DNA from: Streptomyces sp. NBC_00708
GTDB lineage: Bacteria > Actinomycetota > Actinomycetes > Streptomycetales > Streptomycetaceae
Assembly: GCA_036226585.1 (NCBI GenBank)
Contig: CP108998.1
Span: 133,495 to 197,494, forward strand
Length of the DNA stretch: 64,000 bases
Direction of reading: 5' to 3'
Shown: positions 354-15,359 of the stretch, piece by piece
How the letters are laid out: each line of letters begins with the position of its first letter
Position numbering within the stretch: the stretch's first letter is position 1
Notes under the pieces: generated by a model
Databases searched by the model: none
Told to the model about the DNA's origin: nothing
What the model saw: only the letters and a program-made list of their open reading frames with translations
Made by a program: the position numbers and the translations under genes

Positions 354-1637
354 ATGCTGCAACAACCCTCGTTCGGACGTCGTCTGAAGAAGCTGCGCGT
401 GGCCCAGGGCTACTCGCAGACCGCGCTCGCCGGAGAAGGCATGTCCACTGGCTACCTCTCCCGCCTGGAGTCGGGCGCCCGCCAGCCCACCGAACGCGCC
501 GTCGGCTACCTGGCCCAGCGCCTGGGCATCGAACCCGCCGACTTCGAGGACCCGGCCGGCGGCTCCCTCGCCCACGCCCTGACCCTCGCCGCCTCGACCG
601 GCTCCGACGACGCCCTGCGCACCCTGCACGACGCGCTGTCCGCCGAGGGCCACGAGCTGCCCGTGCTGCGCTGGCAGGCCCTGTGGCTGCTGGCACAGCA
701 CCGCAGACTCCAGGGCGACCACGCCGCCGAACGCGACCACCTGGAACGCCTGGTGCGTCTCGGCGGCGACGTCGGACTGCCCGAACTCCAGGTGCGCGGA
801 CTGACCCGTCTCGCCCGCTGCCTGCGCTCCCTCGGCGAGATCAACGAGGCCGCCGACGCCGCGGTGGAGGCCGACCGCATCGCCCGAGAGGGCCGGGTCG
901 GCGTCGACGACCACGCCGCCGTGCTGCTCGCCCTGGTCTCCGTACGCGCCGAGGCGGGCCGGATCCCGGACGCGCGGGCGTACGCCGACGAGCTGACCGG
1001 GCTCGTCGAGGGCCGCACCGACGCGCTGTGGGCGGAGGCGATGTGGACGGCGGCGGCCGTACGGATGCGGCAGGGCGACTACGCGGGCGCCGAAGGGTAT
1101 CTGGGACAGGCGCTGGAACGGTTCGCCGGCACCGACGACCTGGTGCTGTGGCTCCGGCTGCGCCTCGCGGCGGGCCGTCTGCACCTGCAGAAGGTGCCGG
1201 CCGAGCCGGAGGCCGCCGAGACGTGCGTGGCCGCCGCCGAACAGGCCATGGCCTTCGTCGGCACGCCCGGGATGCGCCAGGAACTCTCGGCACTGAAGGC
1301 GGATCTGGCGTTCATGACGGGCCGTTACGGGGAAGCCCGCACCCTGCTCGGCGAGCTGGCGGCGGAGGCACCGATGATGACCTACCGTGACCGCATCCGC
1401 CTCGACATCCTGCGCAACCAGCTGCGCGTCCTGGCCGGCGACGAGACCGGGGTGGAGGGGCTGCGGGCGCTGGCACAGCAGGCACAACAGGACGCCAACA
1501 TCGACCTGGCGGCCGAGATCTGGCGCATCCTCGCCGACGCCCTCTCCCAGATCCAGCGGCCCTCGACGCATTCTGCACCGGCCGGGAGCACGCTCGTGGC
1601 GACCCAGACACCTACGCGGACGGGGAGCCCGACATGA
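354..1637 (+). CDS. XRE-family helix-turn-helix regulator with TPR-like C-terminal domain
   Basis: This is a 427-residue protein. Residues about 5-60 form an XRE/Cro-type HTH (FGRRLKKLRVAQGYSQ, then a GYLSRLESGARQP recognition region). The remaining ~360 residues are all-helical, Ala/Leu-rich repeats of TPR type. This architecture is shared with peptide-sensing RRNPP-like regulators and many orphan Streptomyces regulators. The ATG at 354 was chosen because AGGGGAA precedes it at normal spacing; the frame is open further upstream without homology. Its TGA overlaps the ATG of a 37-codon ORF. A perfect GGCAAAGCTTTGCC palindrome lies upstream and its half-sites recur at the NRPS/peptide cluster, so it is a candidate regulator of that cluster (inference). 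No ligand can be read from the sequence. Confidence 0.85.
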   Translation: MLQQPSFGRRLKKLRVAQGYSQTALAGEGMSTGYLSRLESGARQPTERAVGYLAQRLGIEPADFEDPAGGSLAHALTLAASTGSDDALRTLHDALSAEGHELPVLRWQALWLLAQHRRLQGDHAAERDHLERLVRLGGDVGLPELQVRGLTRLARCLRSLGEINEAADAAVEADRIAREGRVGVDDHAAVLLALVSVRAEAGRIPDARAYADELTGLVEGRTDALWAEAMWTAAAVRMRQGDYAGAEGYLGQALERFAGTDDLVLWLRLRLAAGRLHLQKVPAEPEAAETCVAAAEQAMAFVGTPGMRQELSALKADLAFMTGRYGEARTLLGELAAEAPMMTYRDRIRLDILRNQLRVLAGDETGVEGLRALAQQAQQDANIDLAAEIWRILADALSQIQRPSTHSAPAGSTLVATQTPTRTGSPT

Positions 1638-5374: not shown

Positions 5375-5393
5375 GCGGTTCGCTACCGGGTGC

Positions 5394-5747
5394 TCAGAGG
5401 ATCTGGATGCTCTTGATCCGGGGCGGGTTGTTCGGGAACGTGATGTCCGTCCAGCGGTTGATCCGCACCGAGTCGCCGTTGACGTCGTAGTAGATCAGGT
5501 CGTTGTTGCCCGTGACGATCCGGTCGGCCCACCAGCCGCCGAAGTCGGTCCTGCCCGCGTTGGCGTAGCAGTCGACGCTGTTTTGGCCGTCCAGGTGGGA
5601 GTAGATCTTCAGGAAGTCCGCGCCGCCGACGCACTCCACGTGGTCGATGGCGTAGGCGGACCCGGCGGGTACGGCCACGGTGAGCGAGGCCGCGGCGGCG
5701 AACGCCATGGCCAGGGAGCCGAGGAGCCGCTTGCCCTGTGCGATCAC
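5394..5747 (-). CDS. Secreted beta/gamma-crystallin-like small protein
   Basis: The 117-residue product has a clear Sec signal peptide (KRLLGSLAMAFAAAASLTV..., cleavage near AYA-ID) and a ~85-residue mature domain. That domain contains two cysteines, the block YANAGRTDFGGWWADRI and Asn/Asp-rich turns (GNNDLIYYDVNGDSV), which suggest a beta/gamma-crystallin or proteinase-inhibitor-like Greek-key fold. Start is GTG 5747, preceded by GGAG at 6 bases; longer frames upstream have no homology. It is secreted and probably extracellular; its function is unknown. It is monocistronic. Confidence 0.75.
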   Translation of the reverse strand: MIAQGKRLLGSLAMAFAAAASLTVAVPAGSAYAIDHVECVGGADFLKIYSHLDGQNSVDCYANAGRTDFGGWWADRIVTGNNDLIYYDVNGDSVRINRWTDITFPNNPPRIKSIQIL

Positions 5748-5972
5748 AAAATCTCCTTCGTACGAGCCCGGCCCATGGCCCGGCCGTGTCGGGTGACGGT
5801 CGCGCCACGACATGCCGATCGCGCTCCGCCGGGCCGGAGGCCGGCCCGTTGACGATCTTGTGGGCAGACCCCCGCCGGACGCGGAAGGCGGTTCGGAGCC
5901 GCCGGTTTTCGACCCGATCGGGCGAAGGCAAGCCACCTGCTCGGGAGCGGAGTTGACGACCGGTCACGGCCC

Positions 5973-8900
5973 CTACGGCAGCTCGTCCAAGTGGTCCAGG
6001 CACAGTTCGTACCGGCTCTCCGCGTGGATCTCCGACCAGCCGGCCGGGACCGTCGCCGAGGCGGGCCACAGGGCGCGGCGGCCCGCGCCGTCGTCGACGA
6101 CCACGAAGGTCGACGGGGTGTCCGCGAACGGGTCGTCCGGCGCCGGGCCTTCGAGAACCGTGAGGTTGCCGTGCTCGTCCAGCCGGGCGGCCCGGCCCGT
6201 GCGCCACATGCGGGCGGTGGTGTCCGGACCGCCGAAGGGGTCCGGCAGGAAGCGCTCGCCCGTGGCGGCCGGGGCGTCGGCGTACCCGAGGGCGACGCCC
6301 GCCCCCGCCACGTACAGCGCGCCGACCGCGCCCGGGGCGACGGGCCGCAGCCCGGCGTCCAGGACATACGCCCGGTAGCCGGGGGCGGGCCGGGCCGCCC
6401 CCGTACCCCGGTGCTCGACGACGAGGTGGCCCTCGGCCCAGCCGCCGCTGGTGAGCAGGGACATGCCCTCCTCGCGGGCGAGCGCGACCAGGGCGACCAG
6501 CACCTCGTCGCTGCCGCCGAGCAGCGTCCGGGCCTCGCGCTCGCGCAGCCAGCGCAGCAGCTCCTGCGGTACGGCGTGCCGCAGCGAGACGTCCGGTACG
6601 TGCACCCGGACACCGCGCACCAGCGCGCCCAGCAGGCCGATCGTGGCGTCGGCGTCCGGGTAGCCGCGTACCAGCCACGCGGCGTCGACCGGCTCGGCCA
6701 GCGTCGCCGCGACGACGGGGCCGGCGCCGACGACCGTGGCGCCGGGCGCGCCGAGCGCCCACAGCACCGGGTCGTCCGCGCACAGCGGGCGCGTACGGTC
6801 GGAGTCCCGCAGCGGCCACCTCCCGTCGGCGGGCAGCAGATCGGCCGATTCGTCGCGCACCAGGCGCACCGCCCCCGGCACCTGACCCAGCAGCAGATCG
6901 GCCGTCTCGTCGAGCAGCATCACCGCCGGCCGCACCGAACGGGGGAGTTTCCGCGACGGGTCGACGGGTACGCACGCCGCGCCGGTCTTCGCGACGGCCA
7001 GCGCGGCCACCGCGAACCCGGTCGGTGACGACAGGGCGGTCACGACCGTGGTGCCGGGGCCCGCGCCGTGCGTGACGAGCGCGTGCGCCAGCAGGTCGGA
7101 CCGGGAGTCCAGCTCCGCGTAGTCCATGACGGAGACCGGCGCTCCGTCGCCCGTACCGGAGGCGGCGGCCACACCGATCGCGCCCGACAGGGCCACCGCC
7201 GCCGGAGCCCGCCGCACCCGCTCCGCGAAGAGGTCGGCGACCGTCGTGACGGGCAGCGTGTGCCGGTGCCCGCCCTCCCACACCCCGCCCCGGACCACGG
7301 GCCGCCCGGCCGGCAGCAGCGTGCTCAGGGCGGCGTCCGGGCGGTCCAGGGCCGCCGCGAGCAGGGCGGTCAGCCGGCCGGTCAGCGTGGCGGCCACGGT
7401 CTCGCCGACCGTCTCGCGCCGGTACGTGGTCGTCAGGGCGATGCCCGCCGGCGCACCCGCCCGGCTCTGGCGCTCAGTCAGCGTGAAGCCCACATCCGTG
7501 GCGGGCAGCGGCAGCCCGGCCCGCTCCGGCTGCACGGTGAGGGCGCCCGCCGCGAACTGGGCCTCCGTCGCCTCCTGGAGGACCGTGAGCGCGACGCCCC
7601 CGGCCTGGGCGAGGGGCGCGTCGGCGCTGCGGTACGCCGCCAGGTCCCGTTCCCGTGCCCGGCGCACCAGCTCGTCGAACGCGGGGTCGTCCGAGGCGTC
7701 CACGGACAGCGCGAGCACCCGCCCGTACGCCCCGACGGCACCCCGGAGGCTGGGGTGGTCCCGGGCCGGGACGGGCGCCGCGACGGTGATCTCGCCGTCC
7801 GCGCCCAGCTGACCGAGGACGGCGGTGAGCGCGGCGTGCACCACCATGAAGACCGTGGCCCCGCGCGCCGCCGCGAACCGGGTGAGCCGGGCGTGCAGGG
7901 CCTCGTCCAGGTCGGCCTCCAGCCGGCCGGGGGCGGTGCCGAAGACCTGGGGACCGGCGCCCGGCAGCGGGGTCGGTGCCGTGTCGCCGTACGGAGAACG
8001 CGGCGCGTACCGCACGAGGTCCCGGACCGGCGACGGGCTGCCCCCGGCGGCCAGCTCCCGGTGGACCCGGGCCAGATCGGCGGCGAGCGGCAGCTGCGAC
8101 CACAGGTCCACACCGTCGGCGGGCAGCGAGAGTTCGAGCAGGTGGTCGTCCGGCGCCACGGACCGCAGCCGCGTCCCGGCGGTCCCGATACGGGAGTTGC
8201 GCAGCACCGTGTGCCGCCTCCCCAGTACGGCGAGCGACTCGTCCAGCACCCGTACGTCCAGCGGCCCGCGCAGCCGGAACGCCAGCACGACGCTGTCCGT
8301 ACCGGCCGAACCGGAGGCGCCCGGCCCGATCGCGGCGGCCGGCCCTTCGCCCAGCAGCGCGGCCAGCGCCGCCGGGGTCGGGGCGGCGTGCAGCGCGCCG
8401 GGACCGACCGGCCCGGTGCCCAGCGTCTCGCGCACCCGGTCCAGCAGCCGGACCGCCGCCAGTGAGTGGCCGCCGACGCGGAAGAAGTCGCAGTCGGCGT
8501 CGATCAGCCGGCGCGGCAGCCCGAGCACCTCCGCGAACAGGTCCCGCACGATCTCCTGGACGGGCGTCCCGGGCGGCGTTCCGGCCACCGCGTCCGCCAC
8601 CGGTCCCGGCGCGGGCAGCGCGGCACGGTCGACGTGGCCCTCGGAATCCAGGGGGAGTTCGCGGTGGAGGACGAGGGAAGAGGGCACGAGCCCGTCGGGC
8701 AGGTGCTGATGGAGATGGGCGCGGAGAGCGGTTTCGAGGGGGACGGCGGGGGAAGGGGCGAGGGCCGCACCGACGGCGACGCCGGCGCCCGCGTGCGCGG
8801 TGCCGGCCGCGTGCACGCTGCCGCCCGTGTGCGGACGGCCTGCCGCCGCGAGGCCGTCCGCCTCGGAGTCGCCGGCCTCGCCGCCCGGCACCACGTGTCC

Positions 8901-10247
8901 CACCAGCCGCCGTTCGCCGTCCGCGTCCGTGTGCACGGTCACCACCGCCTCGGCGACGCCGGGGTGCGCGGTGAGCGCGGACTCGATGGCGTGGAGTCCG
9001 GCGCGCAGACCGTGCACGGTGACGTGATCGTCCGCCCGGCCCGCGAACTCCAGCGCGCCGTCCGTCCGCAGCAGCACCCGGTCGCCGGTCCGCCACAGCC
9101 GCCCGCCGACTCCGGTGAACCGGTCCTCGACGAAGCGCCGGGCGGTCAGCTCCGGCCGGCCGAGGTAGCCGTCCGCGAGCGCGGGCCCGCCCAGCAGCAG
9201 TTCCCCGACGGTGCCCGGGTCGGCGGGCAGGCCGTGGGCGCCGACGACCACGGCGGCGGTGCCCCCGACGGGCCGGCCGTAGGGGATCGGGCCGTCCGGG
9301 TCCGCCGCCTCGCCGGTGATGTCGTGGCAGAGGGCGAACGCGCCCGTCTCCGCCGCCCCGTACACCTGGAGCAGCCGCCGGGGCGGCCCGGCCCGCAGGA
9401 CCCGCCGCACCTGGTGCGGGTCGCAGGTCCCGCCGCCGACGAGCAGCGCGCGCAGCGAGCCGAACGCGTCGGGGCGGTCGCGGACGATCCGGTGGAACCG
9501 GGCGGCCGGCAGCAGGGCGACGGTCACCCCGTGGTCGACGAGGGCGCGCCGCAGCCGCTCCGGGCCGGCGAAGGTGTCGAAGGACAGGACGGTCAGGCGG
9601 GCGCCGGCGGCCAGCGTCGCCCACGTCTCGAACGCGCTCGCGCCGGACGCGGGACTTGCGGCGTGGGCGACGACATCGTCCCGGCCGGGTCGGAAGGCGG
9701 CCCCGGACCGCACCAGTTCGGCCAGCGCCCGGTGCGACACGACGGCACCGGCGGGGGAGCCCTCGCCGGTGCGCGCGGTGTAGCAGATGTACGCGGGGTC
9801 GTCACCGGACACGGAAGGGGAAAGGGGGGCCGCGTGGGGCGGTTCATCGTCCGGTCCCGCCGCCTGCGGGCCGATGACGGCCGCCCCCAGGCCCGCGTAG
9901 TCGAGGGCGTCCGCCGGCTCCGCCAGGACGGTACGGGCCCCGCTGTCGCCCACGACGAACCGGCGGTGTGCGAGCGGATCGGCCGGGTCGAGTGCCACGT
10001 ACGCGGCCCCGGTCCGCAGGACGGCCAGCAGGGCCGTCACGAGCCGGGGTCCGGGACGCAGACTTGTCGCCACCCGGTCGCCCCGGCCGATGCCCCGGGC
10101 CGCGAGGAGCCGCGCCAGCCGGTCGGCGGCGCCGCTGAGCTCACGGTAGGTCAGGGAGACGTCGTCGCCGGGGTGTCCGGGAGCGTGGACGGCGATGGTG
10201 TCGGGGCGTGCGACGACCTGCTGCGCGATGAGACCGGAGATGGACAT
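5973..10247 (-). CDS. NRPS-like protein A-T-C-A with MbtH-like tail; catalytic motifs degenerate
   Basis: This 1424-residue protein contains the following in order. (1) An adenylation-like domain, residues ~1-550: the A3 loop is YTARTGEGSPAGAVVSH with no PKG, A5 is YGAAETG, A7 is LWRTGDR, and A10 reads DSEGHVDR where the family has NGKVDR, so the catalytic Lys is missing. (2) A carrier domain with intact GGHS serine near 593. (3) A condensation-like domain ~650-935 in which HHxxxDG reads LSLPADG. (4) A second, more decayed adenylation fold ~1000-1370 (A7 is MWRTGRAAR, no A10). (5) An MbtH-like end ~1375-1424 (RRALWPASATVPAGW). ATG 10247 has AAGGAG upstream. TTGCCA half-sites precede the gene. 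Only the carrier site looks chemically competent. Confidence 0.8.
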   Translation of the reverse strand: MSISGLIAQQVVARPDTIAVHAPGHPGDDVSLTYRELSGAADRLARLLAARGIGRGDRVATSLRPGPRLVTALLAVLRTGAAYVALDPADPLAHRRFVVGDSGARTVLAEPADALDYAGLGAAVIGPQAAGPDDEPPHAAPLSPSVSGDDPAYICYTARTGEGSPAGAVVSHRALAELVRSGAAFRPGRDDVVAHAASPASGASAFETWATLAAGARLTVLSFDTFAGPERLRRALVDHGVTVALLPAARFHRIVRDRPDAFGSLRALLVGGGTCDPHQVRRVLRAGPPRRLLQVYGAAETGAFALCHDITGEAADPDGPIPYGRPVGGTAAVVVGAHGLPADPGTVGELLLGGPALADGYLGRPELTARRFVEDRFTGVGGRLWRTGDRVLLRTDGALEFAGRADDHVTVHGLRAGLHAIESALTAHPGVAEAVVTVHTDADGERRLVGHVVPGGEAGDSEADGLAAAGRPHTGGSVHAAGTAHAGAGVAVGAALAPSPAVPLETALRAHLHQHLPDGLVPSSLVLHRELPLDSEGHVDRAALPAPGPVADAVAGTPPGTPVQEIVRDLFAEVLGLPRRLIDADCDFFRVGGHSLAAVRLLDRVRETLGTGPVGPGALHAAPTPAALAALLGEGPAAAIGPGASGSAGTDSVVLAFRLRGPLDVRVLDESLAVLGRRHTVLRNSRIGTAGTRLRSVAPDDHLLELSLPADGVDLWSQLPLAADLARVHRELAAGGSPSPVRDLVRYAPRSPYGDTAPTPLPGAGPQVFGTAPGRLEADLDEALHARLTRFAAARGATVFMVVHAALTAVLGQLGADGEITVAAPVPARDHPSLRGAVGAYGRVLALSVDASDDPAFDELVRRARERDLAAYRSADAPLAQAGGVALTVLQEATEAQFAAGALTVQPERAGLPLPATDVGFTLTERQSRAGAPAGIALTTTYRRETVGETVAATLTGRLTALLAAALDRPDAALSTLLPAGRPVVRGGVWEGGHRHTLPVTTVADLFAERVRRAPAAVALSGAIGVAAASGTGDGAPVSVMDYAELDSRSDLLAHALVTHGAGPGTTVVTALSSPTGFAVAALAVAKTGAACVPVDPSRKLPRSVRPAVMLLDETADLLLGQVPGAVRLVRDESADLLPADGRWPLRDSDRTRPLCADDPVLWALGAPGATVVGAGPVVAATLAEPVDAAWLVRGYPDADATIGLLGALVRGVRVHVPDVSLRHAVPQELLRWLREREARTLLGGSDEVLVALVALAREEGMSLLTSGGWAEGHLVVEHRGTGAARPAPGYRAYVLDAGLRPVAPGAVGALYVAGAGVALGYADAPAATGERFLPDPFGGPDTTARMWRTGRAARLDEHGNLTVLEGPAPDDPFADTPSTFVVVDDGAGRRALWPASATVPAGWSEIHAESRYELCLDHLDELP
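5976..6125 (-). other. MbtH-like module at the C-terminus of the NRPS-like protein
   Basis: The last ~50 codons read FVVVDDGAGRRALWPASATV, then PAGW and a final ELCLDHLDELP. This follows the MbtH pattern F-x-V-x-x-N/D-D-x-G-x-x-S-L-W-P-x(5)-P-x-G-W, then a C-terminal Leu. The usual closing WTDxRP is absent. MbtH proteins normally are free ~70-residue activators of adenylation domains; here one is covalently attached behind a degenerate A domain. Confidence 0.6.
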
Positions 10248-10280
10248 CGTGGCGAGCTCCTTCGACAGCGGCTTCCGCCG

Positions 10281-10308
10281 TGGCAAGACATTGCCAGGAC
10301 GTTGGCAG
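10281..10308 (-). promoter_or_regulatory. TTGCCA-type operator of the NRPS-like gene
   Basis: A perfect 6-bp inverted repeat TGGCAA-GACA-TTGCCA is followed by a third half-site, TTGGCAG, 34-60 bases upstream of the NRPS-like start codon. The same half-sites occur before the DIGWP peptide gene and the aminotransferase-like gene, implying common control. Confidence 0.6.
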
Positions 10309-10574
10309 AAGGGCCTTGAAGGTTTCTCCGAACCGGCTGGAGCCCCGCCTTAGCCGCAGGTGGGGGCGGGCCGTCCGGGGGCGTGGACGCCCCCGGACGT
10401 TGCCAGGACGCGGCACGGGAGTGCGGCCGGGAACGTTCGCCGGCGACCGCTCCAGCGGTTCTGGGGCGATGCTCCGGCCGTGTACGACAACGTCGTCGAT
10501 GCGACACACGGGTCGAGATCGACCGGAGGCTCCCCCTCCGCAGCCCGTCCGGTCCTGCCCGGACGGGCTGCTGC

Positions 10575-10604
10575 CGTGCGGGCCGCCCCGGGGCGGCCCG
10601 CACG
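10575..10604 (-). terminator. Strong hairpin after the ECF41 sigma gene
   Basis: A 30-bp perfect palindrome (arms CGTGCGGGCCGCCCC and its complement, no loop) lies 7 bases past the stop of the ECF41 gene at 10611. Confidence 0.75.
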
Positions 10605-10610
10605 TACGGG

Positions 10611-11573
10611 CTACCGCGCCCCGACGTCGTACGCGACCCCCTCCGCGACCGCCCGCAGCTTGTCCGGGTTGGCCACGTTGTGGATCGCGGTGATGCGCCC
10701 GTCCGCGTCGAAGTCGAACGTCACGGTGGCGATCACGCGGTCCGGCCCGCTGAACACCAGGCCCGGACCGCCGTTGATCTCCGCGAGTCCGGCCTTCATG
10801 TCCGCCGGCTCGACGCCCTGGTAGGCGACCGTGCCGATGGCCGAGAACCAGGCGGCCACCGTCGCCGCGCCGGTCACCGGGCGCAGGGCCTGGCGGACCT
10901 TGCCGCCGCCGTCGGTCCACAGGGTGACGTCCGGGGAGAGCAGTTCGAGGAGCGCGTTGACGTCACCGCCGGTCGCGGCAGCGAAGAAACGTTCCGTCGC
11001 CGCGCGCTGCGCCGACCGGCCGGCCTCGAAGCGCGGCCGGCGGGCCCGTACGTGCTCACGGGCGCGGTGCGCCGCCTGCCGTACGGCGGGCTCGGACCGC
11101 TCCACCGCCTCGGCGATCTCGGCGTGGCTGAAGGCGAACACCTCCTTCAGCACGAACACCGCGCGCTCCAGCGGGCTGAGCGTTTCGAGGACCACCAGCA
11201 TGGCCATCGACACCGACTCGGCGCCCAGGGCGGCCGACTCGGTGTCCTGGACGACGGCCTCGGGGGCGCCGGTGCCGGTCAGGATGGGTTCCGGCAGCCA
11301 CGGCCCCACGTACGTCTCCCGCTTGTACCGGGCGGACCGCAGCCGCTCCAGCGCCAGGTTCGACACGATCCGGGTCAGATACGCCTTGGGATCGGCCACC
11401 TTCGAACGGTCCGCGGCGGACCACTTGAGCCAGGCGTCCTGCACGGCGTCCTCGGCGTCGGCTGCGGTGCCGAGCAGGCGGTACGCGACGGAGAACAGCA
11501 GCCGCCGGTACTCCAGGAAGACCTGCTGGCCGGGATGGGCGGGACGGCCTGCGTCGTCGTGCGGGTTGCTCAT
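10611..11573 (-). CDS. ECF41-family RNA polymerase sigma factor (SigJ-like)
   Basis: The 320-residue protein has sigma region 2 (YRRLLFSVAYRLLG, DAEDAVQDAWLKW), region 4 (FSHAEIAEAVERSEPAVRQ) and, in place of a separate anti-sigma factor, a ~120-residue SnoaL-like C-terminal domain. That domain carries the two ECF41 hallmarks: the DGGGK motif (LWTDGGGKVRQAL) and the NPDKL motif near the end. In ECF41 proteins it modulates sigma activity in cis. ATG 11573 follows GAGGGG; an upstream in-frame ATG is less well placed. The flavin oxidoreductase gene lies 30 bases upstream in the same operon, the usual ECF41 arrangement (sigma next to an oxidoreductase, which is often its target). Confidence 0.93.
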   Translation of the reverse strand: MSNPHDDAGRPAHPGQQVFLEYRRLLFSVAYRLLGTAADAEDAVQDAWLKWSAADRSKVADPKAYLTRIVSNLALERLRSARYKRETYVGPWLPEPILTGTGAPEAVVQDTESAALGAESVSMAMLVVLETLSPLERAVFVLKEVFAFSHAEIAEAVERSEPAVRQAAHRAREHVRARRPRFEAGRSAQRAATERFFAAATGGDVNALLELLSPDVTLWTDGGGKVRQALRPVTGAATVAAWFSAIGTVAYQGVEPADMKAGLAEINGGPGLVFSGPDRVIATVTFDFDADGRITAIHNVANPDKLRAVAEGVAYDVGAR

Positions 11574-11603
11574 TTGTCCCCTCGGACACATCGGGTGCGG
11601 GTA

Positions 11604-12809
11604 CTAACGGGTGAAGCGGCCGCCCCGGGGCCAGAACGCGCCCGAGGCGGGCATCTTCTTCATCCGGCCGTACGTCGGCCAGGGCGAAGCCGTCACGGTC
11701 TCCTTGTACCGGACGGCCATCGGCCCCACCAGGCAGATTCGGCGGGGGCTGTCGTCGGGCCGGGTGAACTGCACGACCGCGTCGCCCCGGCCCAGGCTCA
11801 CCGGCGTGTGGTAGTAGCCGAACCGGAACGGCTTTGGCTCCTTGCCCCGGAGAGCCCGGCCGATCGACAGCGCGGCGTGTACCCCGGTCGGCATGCCGCC
11901 CTGGCAGGTGCCGTGCATGACCCCGTACCCCTGCTCGATCGCGGCCGCGTCCCCGATCGCGTACACCTCGGGGTGCGAAACGGAGCGCAGCGCCCGGTCG
12001 GTGACGACGCGTCCGTGCTCGTCCACCTCGAGTCCGGCCGCGGCGGCCAGCGGTGCGACCCGGGTGCCGCCCGTCCACAGGACCGCGTCGGCCGCGATGC
12101 TCGCCCCGTCCGCCAGCTCCACCGAACCGGCGAGAACCTTCACCACCTCGACGCCGCTGCGCACCTGGACGCCGAGGCGGTCGAGGGCGGCGCGCACATG
12201 GGCCGCGGCCCTGTCGTTCATGGTCGCGCCGGGCTCCTTGCCGCCCAGCAGCACCACGTCGAGGCGGGGGTACCGCTCGGCGATCTCCGCGGCCGACTCG
12301 ATCCCGGTGAGTCCGCTGCCGACGACGACCACCGTGCCGCCACCGCTCCCGTTGCCGAGGGTTTCCAGCCGCCCGGCGAGCAGTTCCGCGTCCTGGACGC
12401 CGCTCAGGGTGTAGGCGTGGTCGTCGGCCCCCGGCACCGCCGATGTGTCGGCGTGCCCGCCCAGCGCGTAGACCAGCGTGTCGTAGGGAAGGACGCGGTC
12501 GTCGTCGATCCGCACGGTCCTGGCCCCGGCGTCCACCGCCGTCACCCAGCCCCGCACGAAGTGCGCGCCCGTGCCCTCCAGCATCTCCGGGACGCTCATC
12601 GCGTCGGGCGTGCGGCCGGTGGCCGTCATATGCAGCCGCATCCGCTCGGTGAACCGCTCCTGGGCGTTCACCACGGTCACCCGCACCGTGTCGCGGTGCT
12701 TCCTGGTCCGGGCCGCCAGCTGGACGGCGGCGGCCATGCCCGCGTACCCGGCTCCCAGGATCACCACTCGGTGCGTGGCCGCCGTACGGGTCCTCTGCTG
12801 CGCGCTCAT
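11604..12809 (-). CDS. FAD-dependent NADH dehydrogenase/quinone oxidoreductase (type II-like)
   Basis: The 401-residue protein has an N-terminal FAD-binding Rossmann motif, VVILGAGYAGMAAAVQLA, and a second NAD(P)-binding GxGxxG-type segment, VVVVGSGLTGIESAAEI. It also has the conserved VYAIGDAAAI block that closes over FAD. It belongs to the COG1252 group, which passes electrons from NADH to quinone or related acceptors at the membrane; no membrane helix is seen, and the C-terminus (MKKMPASGAFWPRGG) may be an amphipathic anchor. Start ATG 12809 follows GGAAGGA. It lies 30 bases ahead of the ECF41 sigma gene, so the pair forms one transcript. Confidence 0.88.
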   Translation of the reverse strand: MSAQQRTRTAATHRVVILGAGYAGMAAAVQLAARTRKHRDTVRVTVVNAQERFTERMRLHMTATGRTPDAMSVPEMLEGTGAHFVRGWVTAVDAGARTVRIDDDRVLPYDTLVYALGGHADTSAVPGADDHAYTLSGVQDAELLAGRLETLGNGSGGGTVVVVGSGLTGIESAAEIAERYPRLDVVLLGGKEPGATMNDRAAAHVRAALDRLGVQVRSGVEVVKVLAGSVELADGASIAADAVLWTGGTRVAPLAAAAGLEVDEHGRVVTDRALRSVSHPEVYAIGDAAAIEQGYGVMHGTCQGGMPTGVHAALSIGRALRGKEPKPFRFGYYHTPVSLGRGDAVVQFTRPDDSPRRICLVGPMAVRYKETVTASPWPTYGRMKKMPASGAFWPRGGRFTR

Positions 12810-12932
12810 GATCGGGTCCTTCCTTCCTCACCGGCTGCTGACAACCAGGGGATGGAGGCGGACCCCTCGGATGTGACATGGCGCTTTTGTGACCTGAGTC
12901 ACCAGGGTGCGCCGGGGTGGCCGGACACGACC

Positions 12933-12969
12933 GAAGCCCCCGCGGCGCTCGGCGAGCGGCGGGGGCTTC
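12933..12969. terminator. Terminator hairpin after the carrier-protein gene
   Basis: An 11-bp stem, GAAGCCCCCGC paired with GCGGGGGCTTC, with a 15-base loop. It ends the peptide/carrier transcript on the minus strand, before the oxidoreductase operon begins. Confidence 0.75.
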
Positions 12970-12997
12970 TCGGGTCCTGCGGGGGCGGGGCGGCCCG

Positions 12998-13321
12998 TCA
13001 GGCGACGGCCCAGGGGGTACGCCCACGGGTGACGGTGTCCGACGACGGGTAGAGGCCGGCGTCCCAGGAAGGCTGGAGGGCGGCGGAGACGATGCCCCAG
13101 AGCTGCCCGGCGGTGAGGGTGTGCACGGGAACGACGACCTGGCCGGCGAGGCTGACCCCGTACGCCGCTTCGAGGGAGCTGACGATGCCGATGAGGGCCA
13201 TGGAGTCGAGCCCGTAGCTCTCCATCGGAACGTCGGCGTCGGGCGTCCTCTCCTTGCCCAGGCCGGGAAGGCCCTGCCGGAGAATCGCCTCGAACCTCGC
13301 GTTCCACGGTGTCTGTGCCAT
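12998..13321 (-). CDS. Free-standing acyl/peptidyl carrier protein
   Basis: The 107-residue protein is a carrier domain with the phosphopantetheine attachment motif YGLDSMALIGIV (Ser near residue 40) and a helix-4-like region ending in LWGIVSAAL. The C-terminal ~25 residues (LYPSSDTVTRGRTPWAVA) extend past the fold. It would hold an acyl or aminoacyl group as a thioester for transfer within the neighbouring pathway. Start ATG 13321 follows AAGGAAG. It lies 152 bases downstream of the DIGWP peptide gene on the same strand, with no terminator seen between, so co-transcription is likely. It is one of the few cluster components with an intact active site. Confidence 0.85.
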   Translation of the reverse strand: MAQTPWNARFEAILRQGLPGLGKERTPDADVPMESYGLDSMALIGIVSSLEAAYGVSLAGQVVVPVHTLTAGQLWGIVSAALQPSWDAGLYPSSDTVTRGRTPWAVA

Positions 13322-13473
13322 GGGGCGGACTTCCTTCCGGCTGCCGGGACTTCTGGCCGCGCGAGCCCGGATGTACGAGCCTGCGTGCGTACGTGCGTCA
13401 CGGTGCCGGGTTCCGCTCGAGCCGCCTTGGACGGGCACTCGTGCGGTGGCGGTGCGGGCGGTGCGGGGTGCGG

Positions 13474-13734
13474 TCAGGCGACGGGAGCGGCCGGCCAGCC
13501 GATGTCGCCCTGCGGGGCGGACGGCCAGCCGATGTCGCCCTGGGGAGCGGTCGGCCAGCCGATGTCGCCCTGCGGGGCCACGGGCCAGCCGATGTCCTTG
13601 GCGGAGACCTGCGTCGTGCCGCCGGTGAGCGGCCAGCCGATGTCCCGGCCGTCGGCGGCGCTGATGCCGGCGCTGGTGAGGACGGCGGCGGCGACGGCGG
13701 CGGTGCTGACGAGGACGCGGGCGATGTTCTTCAT
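13474..13734 (-). CDS. Secreted repeat peptide with five DIGWP units
   Basis: The 86-residue product begins with a Sec signal peptide (MKNIARVLVSTAAVAAAVLT, likely cleaved near residue 27). The mature part consists of DIGWP units: one at 31-35, one at 47-51, then three more at exact 10-residue spacing, with the linker APQG between (DIGWPVAPQG, DIGWPTAPQG, DIGWPSAPQG, DIGWPAAPVA). The hypervariable linker position is V/T/S/A. Start ATG 13734 follows AAGGAG at 7 bases. Repeated short cores behind a leader are known in multi-core RiPP precursors and in exported signal peptides. Which applies here is not known, and no canonical RiPP maturase is nearby. TTGCCA operators lie 37-66 bases upstream. 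Confidence 0.85.
   Translation of the reverse strand: MKNIARVLVSTAAVAAAVLTSAGISAADGRDIGWPLTGGTTQVSAKDIGWPVAPQGDIGWPTAPQGDIGWPSAPQGDIGWPAAPVA
13493..13602. repeat. 30-bp tandem repeats encoding DIGWPxAPQG
   Basis: GGCCAGCCGATGTCG recurs at 13493, 13523, 13553 and 13583 with a 30-bp period, with only a few differences between copies, mostly in the linker. High nucleotide identity suggests recent unit expansion. Confidence 0.9.
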
Positions 13735-13770
13735 GGCTGGTCTCCTTTGTGACAAGTTCTTCGTGCCGCG

Positions 13771-13800
13771 TTGGCAACTTCTTGCCTGAAGATTGGCAAC
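13771..13800 (-). promoter_or_regulatory. TTGCCA-type operator of the DIGWP peptide gene
   Basis: Two direct copies of TTGGCAAC, at 13771 and 13793, are 22 bp apart (two helical turns) with a TTGCC between them. They lie 37-66 bases upstream of the peptide start codon on the opposite strand. Confidence 0.6.
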
Positions 13801-14043
13801 ACCTCCTAGGAATTCGCTCGCAATTCCCTCGGGAATGGGTGGAGCAAAGAGGAGGAACAGGCCCGCGAGGTCCTGTCCCCGAGCGGTTCACGTTCGTACG
13901 TACCGTCCTGATCTGCGATGACGTGCCGTACTGCGCGTTCTTCCGGCGCTTGGCAAACCCTGGAGAAGCGAGCCAGGAAATCTCGGAACCGGGGCCAGAG
14001 GAAGAGGGGCGGCCCGCTGCACTCGAGTATCGCTGGAGCGGGC

Positions 14044-14095
14044 GTTGCCAAATTCTCCGAACGCCGGGCAACATATTGCCAGAGGTCAGGCAATG
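14044..14095 (+). promoter_or_regulatory. TTGCCA-type operator of the aminotransferase-like gene
   Basis: GTTGCCAA (14044), GGGCAAC (14066), ATTGCCAG (14075) and GGCAATG (14089) form alternating half-sites 41-92 bases upstream of the ATG at 14136. Confidence 0.6.
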
Positions 14096-14135
14096 ACTTG
14101 TCAAGGTTCCCCGACAACGGGGGGAGGACCCGGAA

Positions 14136-15359
14136 ATGAATGTGCAGACGCCCCAGGTCGAACGAACGGTCCGTCTCGACGCGGCCACCGCAGGCCACAC
14201 ACCGGCCGCGGTGCGCGCCGTCGTCACGGAGTTGCTGCGCAGGGAGGACGAGTACGGGACGCACGAACTGGAGGAGTACGTCGAGGACATCGTGCACACC
14301 GAGGTCCCCGCACGCCTCGGCGCCCTGCTCTCCGTGCCCGCCACCGGCACCACGACCCTCGTGACGGGCGGGGCCGACGCCTTCCGGGAGACGCTCGACC
14401 GGCTGCCCGTCGGCCCGGCCGACCGGATCTGGACGACGCCGTACGAGGACGTCGCCCGCCTCACCGCGCTGTTCGCGCTGCGCGACCGCACCCGCTGCCG
14501 CCTCGACGTCGTCCCGCTGGACGCGCACGGCGACCTGGACCTGGAGTGGATGGCGGCGCACATCGACGAGGACGTGGCCCTGGTCAGCGTGGCCCACGTC
14601 CCGGCCGGCTGCGGCATCGTCAACCCGGTCGAGGAGATCGGCCGCCTCCTCGCCCCGCACCGCGCCCTGTACGCGGTCGACGTCTCGTACGCCGTGGGCC
14701 AGCTGCCCGTGAACGCGGCGCGCATCGGCGCCGACCTGCTCACCGGGGACGCCTGGCGCTTCCTCGGCGGGCCCGTCGACGTCGGCTTCGCCTGCACCAC
14801 TCCCCGCCTGCGGTCCGCGCTCACCGATCCTGGCCCGGCGCGCTACGGCCAGGAGCCGCCCCGGACGCCGCACAGCGCGTCCGTCGCCGGCCTGAACACC
14901 GCGCTCCTCCTGCACGAGAAGGAGGCTTCGGCCGCGCCGCGCCAGGACCTCTACCCGCAGCTGCGCGACGCCGTCGGCCGGGTCCCCGGCACCGAGCTGA
15001 TCGCCCCGGGCCGCGTCCAGTCCGCCGTCCTCGCCTTCCGCCACGACGAGCTGACGGCAGCTCAGCTCCGCCGCGAGCTGCGCGCGCGGGGGATCGTCCT
15101 GCGCAAGACGGTCGCCCAGGAGATGCCGCTCCACCTGCCCGGACGGGGCATCACCACCGCCCTGCACGCCTCCATGGGCCACGACATCACGGCTCAGGAC
15201 ATCGCCCGTCTCGCGCAGGCCCTGGATGCGATCGTGAGCGCCCACCGCCCCACCGAGGTGGTCCTCCCGCGCGCCGTGGGCGGCTCCCTCGCCCCCGTGA
15301 CCGCTGCCCAGAGCCGTCCCCTGCGCGGCACCCGGGGCCACCTGACGCTGCTGCGCTGA
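14136..15359 (+). CDS. Class-V aminotransferase-like protein with the PLP lysine replaced
   Basis: The 407-residue protein has the fold-type I class V layout. TLVTGGADAF is the cofactor-phosphate region, SVAHVPAGCGIVNPVEEI is the segment whose His stacks on PLP, and LYAVDVSYAVGQLPVN supplies the Asp that contacts the pyridine nitrogen. The Schiff-base segment, normally GxxHKWLxGPxGxGF, reads GDAWRFLGGPVDVGF: Arg occupies the place of the catalytic Lys. If correct, the protein cannot form an internal aldimine in the usual way and may be a scaffold, a binding protein, or an enzyme using another mechanism. ATG 14136 follows GGGGAGGA. It is divergent from the DIGWP peptide gene with shared TTGCCA elements. 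Confidence 0.8.
   Translation: MNVQTPQVERTVRLDAATAGHTPAAVRAVVTELLRREDEYGTHELEEYVEDIVHTEVPARLGALLSVPATGTTTLVTGGADAFRETLDRLPVGPADRIWTTPYEDVARLTALFALRDRTRCRLDVVPLDAHGDLDLEWMAAHIDEDVALVSVAHVPAGCGIVNPVEEIGRLLAPHRALYAVDVSYAVGQLPVNAARIGADLLTGDAWRFLGGPVDVGFACTTPRLRSALTDPGPARYGQEPPRTPHSASVAGLNTALLLHEKEASAAPRQDLYPQLRDAVGRVPGTELIAPGRVQSAVLAFRHDELTAAQLRRELRARGIVLRKTVAQEMPLHLPGRGITTALHASMGHDITAQDIARLAQALDAIVSAHRPTEVVLPRAVGGSLAPVTAAQSRPLRGTRGHLTLLR

Follow-up and report, generated by a model that had tools for sequence, protein, structure and literature searches.

A probable RRNPP-like peptide signalling module in Streptomyces sp. NBC_00708

A gene cluster of Streptomyces sp. NBC_00708 built around a repeat peptide with five DIGWP words is probably an RRNPP-like module for cell-cell signalling, in which the repeat peptide would be the pheromone precursor and an XRE-type helix-turn-helix (HTH) regulator with tetratricopeptide repeats (TPRs) its receptor. 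The RRNPP systems described so far belong to Bacillota and to mobile elements of these bacteria. The cluster lies in a 64,000-nucleotide stretch (the window; C2:133495-197494 of a 7.65 Mb genome in three contigs, C2 being 197 kb). Its positions 5973-15359 had been flagged as a possible new peptide modification or signalling system comprising the peptide, a carrier protein, a nonribosomal peptide synthetase (NRPS)-like protein, a sigma factor/flavoprotein pair and an aminotransferase-fold protein without its pyridoxal phosphate (PLP) lysine. The signalling option of this original prediction is supported, but the option of a modification pathway based on the enzyme folds is not. The entries of its parts list were correct but incomplete, since the regulator (354-1637) had been overlooked.

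The precursor gene (13474-13734, minus strand) encodes 86 amino acids. As predicted for a secreted peptide, the product has a basic-hydrophobic N-terminus, which we read as a signal peptide, and five DIGWP units (13630-13644, 13582-13596, 13552-13566, 13522-13536 and 13492-13506, minus strand); its DNA is a tandem repeat with a period of 30. The aminotransferase-fold gene (14136-15359, plus strand) encodes a class-V protein by its Aminotran_5 match. The Schiff-base lysine of active class-V aminotransferases is indeed absent, the motif reading GDAWRFLGG with R where sister proteins have K. We searched 246 genomes of the genus, plasmid records and a phylum-wide draw of 396 genomes; homologues of the PLP-fold protein were present in 31 of the 246 (E ≤ 1e-20), on six named contigs and in 34 plasmid records. 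The lysine was checked at loci (L numbers; genomes carry G numbers) from 30 of the 31 genomes, the six contigs and 11 plasmid loci. Arg also replaces it in the other aligned members of a Lys-less clade, with the motif GWRFLRGP or near in the close clade. Lys is kept (GRKFLRGP) in the sisters L014/L049, L015/L050, L017/L052 and L102 and in more distant proteins. We examined 23 Lys-less loci (our own, 8 other genomes, 4 further contigs and 10 plasmid loci), outside which stand nine more plasmid records with at least 51% identity. The protein resembles class-V aminotransferases and cysteine desulfurases in its Pfam match but differs by the Arg in the clade that is paired with the repeat peptide, and the SufS and EgtE models match it far below their cut-offs. 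The Lys-type sister in L102 is clustered with NRPS, ATP-grasp and proline dehydrogenase genes.

All 23 Lys-less loci, our own included, have a divergent ORF (open reading frame) that encodes both a signal peptide and repeated words. The original prediction had named as its refutation that homologous NRPS-like and PLP-fold genes never occur beside a repeat peptide; this is not what we find. The repeated word is DIGWP or close to it at most of these loci. Deviating words are [AGS]IDWP in L043, PIDWP/RIDWP in L047, PIDWP/LIDWP in L051, GDPGLP in L044 and TTDWP together with DIGWP in L112. Some precursors exceed 86 amino acids (L042, L099, L115), and that of L042 has up to 13 GWP words in tandem. 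Word scans beside the PLP-fold gene of four Lys-type loci gave no word ORF. A DNA pattern of two nearby DIGWP words, blind to genomes with other words, matched 6 of the 246 genus genomes and its reversed control none, and all six also have the regulator and a PLP-fold homologue.

The regulator (354-1637, plus strand; 427 amino acids) is the window copy of an XRE-HTH protein that recurs in several loci when their genes are clustered. HTH_31 and HTH_3 score above cut-off and the TPR families below the curated cut-off (best E 1e-5); TPR_MalT passes in the regulator of L084. Sequence matches in the PDB include ComR and PlcR among other XRE proteins, with the similarity limited to the HTH. An AlphaFold2 model from three sequences (mean confidence, pLDDT, 78.6; predicted template modelling score, pTM, 0.62) has an HTH followed by TPR-like helix pairs, and in a Foldseek search with it the PlcR-PapR7-DNA complex (3u3w) ranks fourth, with ComR and several Rap structures after it. 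The predicted model shows a fold of the peptide-binding type; descent from PlcR, ComR or Rap is not implied.

The regulator is present in 43 of the 246 genus genomes (E ≤ 1e-70), in 35 plasmid records (34 Streptomyces, 1 Kitasatospora; E ≤ 1e-30) and in 4 of the 396 phylum-wide genomes (E ≤ 1e-40), all four from the genus of the window; a search of viral contigs, for close relatives only, found none. It accompanies the Lys-less protein in 9 of 9 genomes and the PLP-fold homologue in all 22 plasmid records where the latter has at least 44.8% identity; the remaining 12 of 34 records, with homologues of 27-32% identity, do not appear among the regulator hits. Among Lys-type sisters, G001, G210 and NZ_CP108701.1 have the regulator and G033 has none. 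The plasmid records with the closest regulators (H1-H7) are 199-209 kb. In one record, NZ_CP109507.1, a linear plasmid of 199 kb, the gene order over the flagged stretch is identical to ours, so C2 is probably a linear plasmid as well.

One line of evidence that ties peptide to regulator comes from the 2.5 kb upstream of the regulator gene, where short ORFs containing an x[IVL][GDE]WP word are found. Such ORFs accompany 46 of the 59 full-length regulator genes that remain once duplicates are removed (52 clusters at 90% identity). The word is C-terminal in 33 (at most two residues after WP; 29 end exactly there), tandem in 6, near the C-terminus in 2 and internal in 5. C-terminal or tandem words thus occur at 39 of 59 regulators versus none of 77 background windows of 2.5 kb, and the other classes at 7 of 59 versus 4 of 77 (1 near, 3 internal); under a narrower word rule the background is 1 in 168. 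Fisher's exact test on 41 of 61 rows (some genes twice) versus 0 of 77 gives 3e-20, an optimistic value because the genes are related. As a test set, 14 more stretches were then fetched, which contain 15 distant regulators (38-46% identity). For 10 of these 15, I[DE]WP forms the very end of an upstream ORF, and nine of the ten ORFs have an evident signal sequence; two more short ORFs end in WP with other words. Word peptides adjoin regulators at loci that have no Lys-less gene in the examined sequence, which speaks against a modification pathway on the enzyme folds, and the words also sit in leaderless ORFs unlike the repeat precursor; the constant partner of the word peptides is therefore the XRE-TPR regulator, which is likely to be the receptor of the DIGWP peptide. 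In L106 (S. globisporus C-1027 plasmid SGLP1, 64148-73341), the regulator stands with a signal-peptide ORF that has two EWP words and is annotated as hypothetical.

Word and regulator also vary together. In a tree of 44 regulator rows, the clade that includes the Lys-less loci (20 rows, support 100/100) has mostly DIGWP words, the exceptions being two rows with DIDWP, a single DLDWP and some rows that have no word beside the regulator. Outside this clade DIGWP occurs in L102, L067 and L107, and EWP or DWP words are found in other clades. On the 59-gene tree, the middle position of the word, occupied by G, D or E, needs 9 changes, versus a mean of 20.7 and a minimum of 16 in 500 shuffles. DIGWP is common to two precursor types, beside the regulator and beside the aminotransferase-fold gene, that have no visible resemblance, and in G117 both types carry IDWP.

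The promoters of the cluster share a further feature. Upstream of the peptide gene lies an operator-like array, TTGGCAA-CTTC-TTGCCTG-AAGA-TTGGCAA (13771-13799), with an imperfect middle half, and arrays like it stand at similar positions in relatives. Half-sites are also found upstream of the PLP-fold gene (13951, 14045 and 14076, within 13951-14081; also in relatives) and of the NRPS-like gene (10280-10405; an imperfect palindrome at 10280-10297 and a half-site at 10400). The window as a whole has no excess of TTGCCA (10, shuffle mean 12.4). Eight of the ten fall within 10281-14081, the 3.8 kb in which the NRPS-like, peptide and PLP-fold genes have their promoters (binomial P 6e-9, for an interval picked post hoc). 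The predicted sharing of TTGCCA half-sites by three promoters is thus confirmed, and together with the recurring peptide/PLP pairing it supports a recurrent gene set over random neighbours. Across 20 loci, TTGGCA/TGCCAA occurs 121 times in the 16.0 kb that make up the 800 bp upstream of the PLP-fold genes, versus 45 times in 286 kb elsewhere in the same loci, and 11 locus pairs have an array of about TTGGCAACCTCTTGCCAAGAAGATTGGCAAG. Within 600 bp upstream of the regulator, sites are present for 35 of the 40 genes that fall outside the Lys-less clade of the tree and for 1 of the 19 that fall within it. From these distributions, TTGGCA-type sites track the peptide gene, be it beside the regulator or beside the aminotransferase-fold gene.

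The same sites could instead serve an activator of the Streptomyces antibiotic regulatory protein (SARP) type, with the peptide as one SARP output and the XRE-TPR regulator sensing something else. SARP sites are heptamers of the TGGCAAG kind; our half-sites recur on one strand at 22-23 bp, and SARP genes lie near many loci. We nevertheless consider this improbable, because the half-sites form inverted pairs too, follow the peptide gene even beside regulators without a SARP in 6-9 kb (L103, L106), and are nearly absent from the three-SARP region of our own genome, which has no TTGGCA and one TGCCAA.

We favour peptide signalling, for which the binding, processing, import and regulation steps are those that we infer. 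The 86-residue precursor would be exported via its signal peptide and cleaved to short DIGWP-bearing peptides, a pentapeptide being the simplest guess, and these would re-enter the cell, presumably by an oligopeptide permease of the Opp kind. Inside, the peptide would bind the TPR domain of the 354-1637 regulator, as suggested by the gene pairing, the variation of the word on the tree and the fold, and the regulator in turn would bind palindromically arranged TTGGCAA/TTGCCAA half-sites. Sites upstream of the peptide gene would give autoinduction, and the Lys-less aminotransferase-fold and NRPS-like genes, which have sites of their own, would be outputs. Several words per precursor could amplify the signal, as in yeast alpha-factor. 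Many relatives' modules sit among SARP, polyketide synthase (PKS), NRPS, phosphopantetheinyl transferase (PPTase), ScbR-type or acetyl-CoA carboxylase (ACCase) genes, and the output is therefore probably a specialised metabolite.

It is also conceivable, if rather unlikely, that the word peptides act within the cytoplasm, as ligands or antagonists, and carry no intercellular signal. The receptor-side ORFs of the Lys-less clade, which lack a visible signal sequence, would fit this; the signal sequences of the window precursor and of nearly all test-set word ORFs would not. The varied strand arrangement (37 word ORFs divergent, 9 on the strand of the regulator) speaks against a leader-peptide attenuator.

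Several observations weigh against peptide signalling through this regulator. In the window, 12 kb separate the peptide from the regulator, beside which there is no convincing word ORF; a 10-residue ORF ending in LEWP near it was judged a chance occurrence and dropped before counting. For thirteen of the 59 regulators, the examined upstream sequence (308-2500 bp) contains no word ORF, and a search for variant words in these gave none that was convincing. Of the six tandem cases, those in L039 and L041 come from the PLP-side repeat itself. The word rule was derived partly from the same loci, and many of the regulator genes are kin. Between the two precursor types, the words differ in G199 and G039 (DIGWP versus IDWP) and in G205 (DLDWP versus GDPGLP), and PLP-side repeats have drifted to AEDWP in L040 and DIDHP in L038. 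The match to the TPR fold is generic, with eukaryotic LGN at ranks 1-3 and TM scores of 0.35-0.49 for PlcR. A scan of our own genome for palindromes with two mismatches gave 51 hits versus 114 in the control, no enrichment, so no wider regulon can be called.

That the DIGWP units are core peptides of a ribosomally synthesized and post-translationally modified natural product, matured by the carrier, NRPS-like and PLP-fold proteins, agrees with the repeated cores, the adjoining carrier and NRPS-like genes and the presence of an NRPS-like homologue at 7 of the 12 other Lys-less loci, but is very doubtful given that word ORFs adjoin regulators where no Lys-less gene is seen, that 29 of 46 stop exactly at WP, that no constant maturase gene was seen and that the NRPS-like gene is missing from other Lys-less loci (e.g. 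L038, L042, L048).

We think it fairly likely that Streptomyces has its own RRNPP-like family, whose XRE-TPR receptors read x[IVL][GDE]WP pentapeptide-like pheromones from single C-terminal or alpha-factor-like tandem precursors and switch on biosynthetic clusters that are often plasmid-borne, and that one clade has taken on a Lys-less aminotransferase as a constant partner. The likeness to PlcR-PapR, ComR-ComS and Rgg-SHP of Bacillota lies in an XRE HTH and TPR regulator of 250-500 amino acids, in a small and often adjoining ORF, often with a signal peptide, that has its word at or near the C-terminus, and in a half-site array upstream of the peptide gene; the PlcR box, too, is palindromic. 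The modelled fold match to PlcR-PapR7-DNA may be added. The present system differs by the [IVL][GDE]WP word, the tandem precursors, the second precursor type and the Lys-less partner; sequence similarity of its regulator is confined to the HTH, and it was seen only in Streptomyces and Kitasatospora within the searched sets. With gamma-butyrolactone (ScbR/ArpA-type) signalling it shares the link to metabolite clusters, ScbR-type and SARP genes adjoining the module in L112, but the signal is a peptide rather than a lactone and the receptor is XRE-TPR rather than TetR-type.

A survey (PMC10075063) lists for RRNPP systems a propeptide of 10-100 amino acids, Sec export, a receptor of 250-500 amino acids with TPRs, and adjacent genes. 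Both lengths and the TPRs of the window agree with this list; for Sec export the precursor is a candidate by its basic-hydrophobic N-terminus, judged by eye, and adjacency is seen in relatives such as L102, L108 and L141-L147 but not in the window. We therefore regard the window locus as working like RRNPP systems and do not file it as a formal member. According to the same survey, the signals of Actinomycetota are as a rule small molecules; the figure that shows its workflow names Firmicutes and viruses. Cyclic or modified peptides are, however, mentioned beside gamma-butyrolactones in an older review on actinobacteria (PMC4748050). No description of such peptides or of RRNPP-like systems in Streptomyces was found among the literature matches listed; bioRxiv and most subscription journals lay outside this coverage, so an earlier account is possible. 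If the signalling proposal is right, synthetic pentapeptides added to cultures could switch on silent clusters, and the receptor-word code would be testable in at least 43 of the 246 sampled Streptomyces genomes. The steady pairing of the Lys-less aminotransferase with the signal is a separate puzzle.

Among the other genes of the cluster, the NRPS-like protein (5973-10247, minus strand; likely start ATG at 10247) has the adenylation (A), thiolation (T), condensation (C) and MbtH layout A-T-(C)-(A)-MbtH, with the eroded domains in brackets; Pfam reports AMP-binding, PP-binding, a partial Condensation domain, further AMP-binding stretches and MbtH. Core-motif patterns find the T motif in the window copy, no A motif, no C motif in the C domain and one loose C-type match outside it. 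The predicted erosion of catalytic motifs thus holds by pattern, but the first A domain still passes the NCBIfam amino acid adenylation cut-off (409.9 versus 317.4 bits), which counters a plain 'dead' reading. The family layout is A-MT-T-(C)-(A)-MbtH, where MT is methyltransferase. Among 11 copies compared, the motifs of the first A domain are by these patterns intact only in L040, L043 and L115, and none has a C motif in its C domain. The homologues in other Lys-less loci were counted at 45% identity or more. The family (window, L040, L043, L044, L112, L115) seems to decay stepwise, despite a ratio of nonsynonymous to synonymous substitution (dN/dS) of 0.26 for the window copy versus L101. 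All seven genes compared with L101 have a dN/dS of 0.14-0.46 (0.36 for the aminotransferase-fold gene), indicating purifying selection, so the odd enzymes appear to be retained for some function.

The free-standing carrier protein (12998-13321, minus strand; Pfam PP-binding) has, as predicted, an intact serine (LDSMALIG). Homologues with 71-92% identity adjoin the peptide in L101, L111, L116 and L117; a conserved carrier partner was rejected, since peptide-near carriers fall into two mutually non-matching families. The predicted sigma factor/flavoprotein pair is present, namely a SigJ-type factor by NCBIfam (10611-11573, minus strand), which we take to be ECF41, and a FAD/NAD(P) oxidoreductase (11604-12809, minus strand). 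The pair was rejected as part of the core set because, among the examined loci, it is limited to the window lineage, in 2 of 12 other Lys-less loci (L036, L037) and in L101.

The three-SARP region mentioned above (L053, C2:26000-45900) lies about 100 kb from the cluster. A mprF resistance prediction in L115 (1386-1769) falls on a 384-bp VOC-family gene and looks spurious. Positions 5383-5763 of the window encode a small, probably secreted protein without a Pfam match, whose L101 counterpart is annotated as beta/gamma crystallin domain-containing.

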